A stretch of DNA of 64,000 nt from Deltaproteobacteria bacterium (GTDB lineage: Bacteria; Myxococcota_A; UBA9160; UBA4427), in NCBI GenBank assembly GCA_029261855.1, contig JAJDAN010000032.1:62001-126000 (forward strand). The letters run 5' to 3'. This document shows, in pieces, positions 32,205-33,154 of the stretch. The position numbers were made by a program, and so were the translations under genes. The notes under the pieces were generated by a model. It searched no databases, was not told where the DNA came from, and was given only the letters and a program-made list of their open reading frames with translations. The first letter of the stretch is position 1. Each line of letters starts with the position of its first letter.

Positions 32205-32208
32205 GCGG

Positions 32209-32340
32209 CTAGGAGCGTGACCCAAGACGCAAGTCTTGGGACGCGACGACGCAAAGGTCGCTGACCACAGCTAGGAGCGTGACCCAAGACGCAAGTCTTG
32301 GGACGCGACGACGCAAAGGTCGCTGACCACAGCTAGGAGC
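32209..32340 (-). repeat. 62-bp tandem repeat carrying two hairpins, between redoxin and phosphoesterase
   Basis: Two exact 62-bp units (32209-32270 and 32271-32332) and 8 bp of a third. Each has a perfect hairpin CCCAAGAC-GCAA-GTCTTGGG (32221-32240 and 32283-32302) with a GNRA-type loop, and a smaller one, GCGAC...GTCGC. It follows the redoxin stop directly and could act as a duplicated 3' structure or terminator without a U-tract. Confidence 0.9.
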
Positions 32341-33154
32341 TCGTCTGCTCTCGGAAGGCAGTGAGCAGGTCTTCTGCCTTGATGCGGATGCGCCAGTTGT
32401 CGGTGAGGTCTCGCCAGACGATGACGCCGTTCTCGATGATGAACGTGGCGGGGCGGGGCACGTCGGGCTTGTCGCGGTTCGGCGACCCGCCTTCGTGGCG
32501 GAGACCCAGGGCGTCGGTCAGCTCGAGGTTCTCGTCCGACAGGATCGGGAAGTCGAGATCGAAGCGTTGGACGACGCCGCGATTCTCTTCGACGGTGTCG
32601 GGGCTGACGGCGATGACCCGGGCGCCGGCGGCTTCGAACTCAGTGATCTTTGTCTGCAGCCCGTGCAGCTCCGACATACAGAACGGTCACCAGTGGCCCC
32701 GATAGAAGACCAGGATCAGCTTGTCCTGCGCGGCGTCGGCGATGTCGATGGCCTCGCCGTCGGTGGATGCCAGGGTGATGGCGGGCAGGCGCGTGCCGTC
32801 GTCCACCACGCGTCCGGCGTCGGGCAGCTGGTAGGACAGGAAGAAGGCGTAGAAGCAGAGCAGCCCCAGCATCGACACGGAGACGAACAGGCCAATGCCG
32901 CTGCCGGCGCGGCCGAGGCTCGAGCGGGCGCGGCCCAGGGCCAGGACGGAGACGCCCACGGCGCCCAACAGGATGAGCAGGTTCAGCCACGGGAAGTCGC
33001 GGAAGACCGGCCACATCGAGAAGTAGACGAAGTATGAAAGCAACCCGAAGACGGCCAGCACCGGCCCCACCCAGGCGAGGTAGTTGAAGGTGCCCGACGC
33101 GGAAGTCGGAAGAGGCGGCTGGGGCGCGTTCTCGGCTGAACCGGATTCGCTCAC
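32333..33154 (-). CDS. Membrane-anchored selenocysteine-containing redoxin (peroxiredoxin-like)
   Basis: Two frames join across an in-frame TGA at 32687-32689. Read through as selenocysteine (residue 156) the product has 273 residues and the redox site reads VFYRGHW-U-PFCMSELHG, matching the usual RGxWCPxC of AhpC/TSA-type peroxiredoxins with U in place of Cys. The downstream part has ARVIAVSPDTVEENR and FPILSDENLELTDALGL, as in peroxiredoxins. Three transmembrane helices precede the domain (about residues 25-110). The start GTG 33154 is divergent from the CoA-transferase. A small hairpin follows the UGA. No sel genes are in the window. Confidence 0.85.
32654..32668 (-). promoter_or_regulatory. 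Candidate bacterial SECIS hairpin
   Basis: On the minus strand CTGCA-CGGGC-TGCAG forms a 5-bp stem with a G-containing loop, beginning 18 nt after the in-frame TGA (32687-32689). The distance fits bacterial SECIS elements. The stem is short and has not been tested by folding. Confidence 0.45.

Follow-up and report, generated by a model that had tools for sequence, protein, structure and literature searches.

An uncultured myxobacterium (Deltaproteobacteria bacterium, Myxococcota_A; UBA9160; UBA4427) carries, on the minus strand of the 64,000-nucleotide stretch of contig analyzed here (the window), a gene that on sequence evidence is a bacterial selenoprotein, its single in-frame TGA reflecting Sec recoding and not an error, a pseudogene or codon reassignment. 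Our analyses suggest that the product is probably a Sec-containing selenol/thiol oxidoreductase of the inner membrane, consisting of three helices and a periplasmic domain and employing chemistry like that of ResA/TlpA. The first-pass annotation had proposed a selenocysteine-containing, membrane-anchored redoxin at this locus, and the Sec machinery of the genome, the TGA shared with seven orthologues and the Cys orthologue L062 all bear this out; its coordinates were also right, although the strand had been left unstated.

Conventional ORF calling splits the gene into a 155-aa piece (32687–33154) and a 114-aa piece (32333–32677). Read with TGA as U, these join, as the first-pass annotation had supposed, into a continuous 273-codon frame that contains TGA once, at codon 156, within the sequence LILVFYRGHW-U-PFCMSELHG (Table 1). 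Homology does continue on both sides of this codon: Pfam AhpC-TSA (PF00578) matches residues 120–247 without a break at the UGA (E = 1.1e-24; 87.1 bits, with a gathering cut-off of 26 bits), and Pfam Redoxin likewise spans residues 120–253. The protein therefore combines UPFC with an AhpC/TSA domain above the gathering score, the two features that define the Prx-like UxxC selenoproteins (PF00578). GC3 is 0.92 upstream and 0.87 downstream of the UGA.

Table 1. Features of the Sec redoxin gene, in positions of the window
Feature	Position	Strand	Basis
Whole gene, predicted 273-aa membrane-anchored Sec redoxin	32333–33154	minus	Open frame with TGA = U, Pfam, orthologues
GTG start	33154	minus	
TAG stop	32335–32333	minus	
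In-frame TGA, Sec156	32687–32689	minus	Frame; seven other orthologues with TGA, L062 with TGC
AhpC/TSA (redoxin) domain, residues 120–247, across the UGA	32414–32797	minus	Pfam
Cys159, probable resolving residue of UPFC; matches the peroxidatic Cys in peroxiredoxin alignments	32678–32680	minus	Invariant, 52/52
Pro235, cis-Pro position of thioredoxin-fold oxidoreductases	32450–32452	minus	Invariant, 52/52; Pro of L024 compared with ResA
Transmembrane helix 1, residues 25–47	33014–33082	minus	Hydropathy, model
Transmembrane helix 2, residues 55–75	32930–32992	minus	Hydropathy, model
Helix 3, residues 79–108	32831–32920	minus	Hydropathy, model
Candidate bSECIS hairpin, CTGCA-CGGGC-TGCAG	32654–32668	minus	G at second apical-loop position; not significant alone

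When the domain is aligned with peroxiredoxins, among them an archaeal BCP (2cx3), the peroxidatic Cys falls on Cys159, and the Thr/Ser located three residues before it, the Thr of TxxC in the peroxiredoxin motif, falls on Sec156. The same register is seen with L111, a Sec-peroxiredoxin encoded in the same genome (FTPGU), in which the Sec aligns with Cys159 and the Thr with Sec156. The first-pass annotation had described a peroxidatic Sec, a description that these alignments do not support. ResA, for its part, matches the domain at GxWCPxC, and in a paralogue (L024) the Pro equivalent to Pro235 aligns with the PLPTSFLID segment of ResA (the PTS/PTT loop), which we take to be the cis-Pro loop of thioredoxin-fold oxidoreductases. 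The sequence thus contains, in a redoxin fold, both a UxxC and the Pro of the cis-Pro loop that mark the ResA/TlpA type. Eight positions are invariant in all 52 relatives (F150, R152, W155, U/C156, P157, C159, D207 and P235); since W-U-P-x-C and the Pro at the ResA cis-Pro loop are among them, the site looks like the UxxC center of a thioredoxin-like oxidoreductase and not like a peroxidatic Sec.

A rival, though improbable, reading is that the protein is a true peroxidase whose peroxidatic residue is Sec156 or Cys159 and whose substrates could be, for example, lipid hydroperoxides of the inner membrane. The best structural and sequence neighbors of the domain include BCP/PrxQ peroxiredoxins, and a Foldseek search with the structure model (mean pLDDT 59.7) matched peroxiredoxin Q/BCP and not ResA; because these whole-domain matches are to BCP/PrxQ proteins, a peroxidase role retains some probability. 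Moreover, Cys159 occupies the peroxidatic position, and R234, invariant among direct orthologues, could stand in for the catalytic Arg that comes before the next strand in peroxiredoxins. However, the canonical PxxxTxxC (or U) motif is replaced here by RGHWUPFC, with Sec in place of the Thr and Arg152 in place of the Pro, and an Arg at R234 is found in only 10 of the 52 relatives, in an alignment that is ambiguous there by one residue, whereas Pro235 is found in all of them. In addition, the genome already encodes a canonical TxxU peroxiredoxin, L111.

Hydropathy profiles place three hydrophobic helices ahead of the redoxin domain in the orthologues and in two paralogue groups, and an AlphaFold model delimits the same number in the window gene, as the first-pass annotation had also reported; the quality of this model is low, and its secondary structure alone was used. 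The N-terminal helices have no match in NCBIfam and none in a whole-protein Pfam search. The Arg-rich segment GRARSSLGRAG separates the hydrophobic core of helix 2 from that of helix 3, and the corresponding loop of the orthologues is also rich in Arg/Lys. By the positive-inside rule this loop would be cytoplasmic, and the redoxin domain is therefore predicted to lie in the periplasm. In L024, L033, L037 and their relatives, a group with the signature FFR[AG]HWUPYC, the Arg/Lys-rich loop is found between helices 1 and 2, not 2 and 3; the redoxin domain of this group may possibly be cytoplasmic, a topology opposite to that of the window gene. The first-pass annotation had regarded fusion to a membrane anchor as an unusual setting; judged by the hydropathy of its relatives, it is instead the rule for this redoxin family in the order, and the predicted membrane-bound form is kept by relatives across both the order and the class.

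This layout bears on a further possibility, that the gene makes two products: when selenium is scarce, the UGA would terminate translation and yield a 155-aa three-helix protein with a role of its own, making the locus a selenium-dependent switch. A stop at codon 156 would indeed leave the entire membrane part intact, but any selenoprotein gene yields a truncated product without selenium, and we consider such a switch very unlikely. The genes around the locus (a CoA-transferase and others) are shared with the same-genus genome only; we found no conserved neighbors beyond the genus, and no functional partner emerges from the gene order. Just downstream of the stop codon, positions 32208–32331 form a perfect tandem duplication of 62 nt, each unit of which holds the inverted repeat CCCAAGAC-GCAA-GTCTTGGG; this is perhaps a duplicated terminator or an intergenic repeat.

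The assignment of codon 156 as selenocysteine draws on its conservation. Seven other orthologues, with identities as low as ∼50%, have TGA at exactly this codon (the same-genus genome L031, L060, L061, G070, G148, G193 and G316), and together with the window gene these span at least three families of Myxococcota in independent assemblies. L031 is 72% identical to the window gene, and its sequence does not differ from that of L059 (“Myxococcota bacterium isolate IP29b_bin.86”). The first-pass annotation had proposed alignment with Cys homologues, and one was found: the eighth orthologue, L062 (51% identity), has Cys, encoded by TGC, at codon 156. Among 80 genomes of the order, 55 contain a relative at E ≤ 1e-20, and one in-frame TGA is present in 82 of 84 matches and absent from the other 2; in every TGA relative whose sequence was read, the codon falls on the UPxC site. 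The sharing of this codon is, on these counts, far beyond chance. In a phylogenetic tree the Cys-containing L062 clusters with the Sec orthologues, and two to three changes are required to account for the distribution of Sec and Cys, from which it follows that the two residues have interchanged. Moreover, dN/dS downstream of the UGA was 0.21/0.54 between G000 and the same-genus orthologue G001 and 0.30/1.82 between L060 and L062, ratios that identify purifying selection on the sequence 3′ of the UGA.

The genome also encodes a complete set of genes for selenocysteine insertion, a search for which the first-pass annotation had suggested. Profile searches detected SelA (447.5 bits), located on the same contig ∼22 kb past the end of the window, SelB, above its cut-off and encoded by a 651-aa gene, and SelD, also above its cut-off and itself containing a single in-frame TGA, in a GGUARK motif. 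tRNA-Sec passes the Rfam gathering score with 66 bits and is called by ARAGORN as well, with a TCA anticodon. With this gene complement, the organism is predicted to be able to insert Sec. At least 10 genes of the genome are UGA-recoded (L107, L108, L111, L112, L113, L117, L121, L122, L124 and L011), a count that is a lower bound. TGA lies within 8 of the 19 AhpC-TSA domain matches of the genome, among which are a UGC type, a GULFC type and a TxxU peroxiredoxin of the canonical kind; to these come a SelW-like CGRU protein and SelD.

Against this evidence, it is exceedingly improbable that the TGA truly ends translation, stems from a sequencing error or marks a degenerating gene, with two separate or broken products as the outcome: five neighboring genes do use TGA as their stop, and annotation pipelines would call two ORFs here, but the same codon is TGA in the gene and its seven orthologues from independent assemblies, selection is purifying downstream of it, and the Sec machinery is complete. 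Equally remote is a genome-wide reassignment or suppression of UGA, for example as Trp, which would make the residue something other than Sec: the frame is open with TGA read as any residue, but TGA terminates those five neighboring genes in the window and is therefore not reassigned, relatives without TGA have Cys and never Trp at the homologous residue, and a tRNA-Sec with a UCA anticodon is present alongside SelB.

The recoding signal itself is less clear. A hairpin with stem CTGCA/TGCAG and loop CGGGC begins exactly 18 nt 3′ of the UGA, where the first-pass annotation had noted it, and the loop fits the usual rule for bacterial SECIS elements, which calls for a G at its first or second base. 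The hairpin is, however, weaker evidence than that annotation implied: a G-loop hairpin of equal strength arises in 35% of synonymous shuffles of the gene (p = 0.35), and a comparable one is present in the Cys orthologue L062. We therefore rejected it as stand-alone proof of a SECIS element. A hairpin with a GG-containing loop is found in the window gene and nearly all TGA orthologues, with 87.5% of cells paired; among direct orthologues both bases have changed in only one stem pair, and pairing as good was reached by 11 of 500 shuffles. Pairing and covariation are thus suggestive only. The SECIS-like hairpin retained by the Cys orthologue (L062:2291-3040) is CTGCAGGATCTGCAG, and its Cys may reflect a recent change from Sec.

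Immediately 3′ of the UGA, conservation of synonymous codons is not significantly raised among the direct orthologues (p = 0.21), and it is raised in two paralogue groups (p = 0.0002 and 0.014), which share conserved unusual codons after the UGA, e.g. GAG-TTA-CGG-CGA. In L024 and its relatives, the nucleotides of the first 13 codons after the UGA are near-invariant across genera (p = 0.0002 relative to the rest of the gene) and include the unusual codons GTC GCC GAG TTA/TTG CGG CGA TGG, making this segment a strong candidate for a SECIS element under selection. These codon statistics demonstrate nucleotide-level selection after the UGA in the wider family; in the window gene itself such selection is no more than plausible.

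Prx-like UxxC/UxxU thiol:disulfide oxidoreductase selenoproteins (PF00578) are a recognized class, predicted with high confidence in Table 1 of PMC13188914 and represented by the 225 members of “Prx-like 1” in the GOS survey (PMC2398784). The window gene shares with them the AhpC/TSA domain, a Sec in the first position of UxxC, many Cys homologues and the bacterial Sec machinery, and adds a membrane part of three transmembrane helices at the N terminus, with a domain predicted to be periplasmic. The main texts of these two papers describe no transmembrane or three-helix Prx-like form, although earlier membrane-bound members may be recorded in their supplements; PMC13188914 does list membrane-related selenoproteins such as YeeE/YedE and a rhodanese/DsbD fusion. 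Our literature search, which covered openly available main texts, found no paper treating the selenoproteins of Myxococcota. Thus, the selenoprotein class is known, and what is new, in the literature searched, is the conserved three-helix anchor in Myxococcota.

ResA has an extracytoplasmic domain. The window gene shares with ResA/TlpA proteins a GxWCPxC-type active site, the redoxin fold, a membrane anchor, an extracytoplasmic domain (here predicted) and, through paralogue L024, the PTS/PTT cis-Pro loop. It differs from them in having Sec for the first Cys and a three-helix membrane part where they have a single signal anchor, and in lacking conserved cytochrome c maturation neighbors. Although its score against the ResA family (NCBIfam NF002854) is 41.4 bits, far under the cut-off of 170, so that it is not filed as ResA, its sequence suggests that it may work like one. 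The family of SelL-related redox proteins (NF040769) aligns with the initial portion of the domain (residues 123–219), its 45.7 bits being well under the cut-off of 120. L111, with 30% identity over 109 residues, belongs to the same superfamily and also has an in-frame UGA; in contrast to the window gene, with Sec for the Thr and Cys at the peroxidatic position, its Sec occupies that position and follows a Thr.

In the oxidoreductase model that we favor, SelB with Sec-tRNA would insert selenocysteine at UGA codon 156, and the product would be an inner-membrane protein of 273 aa whose three N-terminal transmembrane helices are followed by a C-terminal thioredoxin/peroxiredoxin-fold domain facing the periplasm. 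The active site, W-Sec-P-F-Cys, would lie at the N terminus of the first helix of the fold, together with the invariant Pro at the cis-Pro position. The attacking nucleophile would most likely be the Sec selenolate, whose target could be a disulfide, sulfenic acid or peroxide; Cys159 would resolve the intermediate to form a Sec–S–Cys bond, which a thiol donor would then reduce, as in CxxC enzymes of the ResA/TlpA type. We infer this order of chemistry, the topology and the reducing partner.

These findings have practical consequences, as automatic annotation cuts such genes at the UGA and the active site is lost. They place a membrane-anchored selenoprotein in many genomes of an uncultured order of Myxococcota and provide a testable case for why an oxidoreductase facing the periplasm keeps the more reactive Sec, with the Cys orthologue L062 as a natural control. 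More tentatively, and with the odds rather against it, this order may run a selenium-based thiol relay of the inner membrane with a conserved set of membrane-anchored Sec redoxins, in at least three groups whose topologies are possibly opposite. If this is true, the protein described here would belong to a standing electron-transfer module instead of being one stray selenoprotein.
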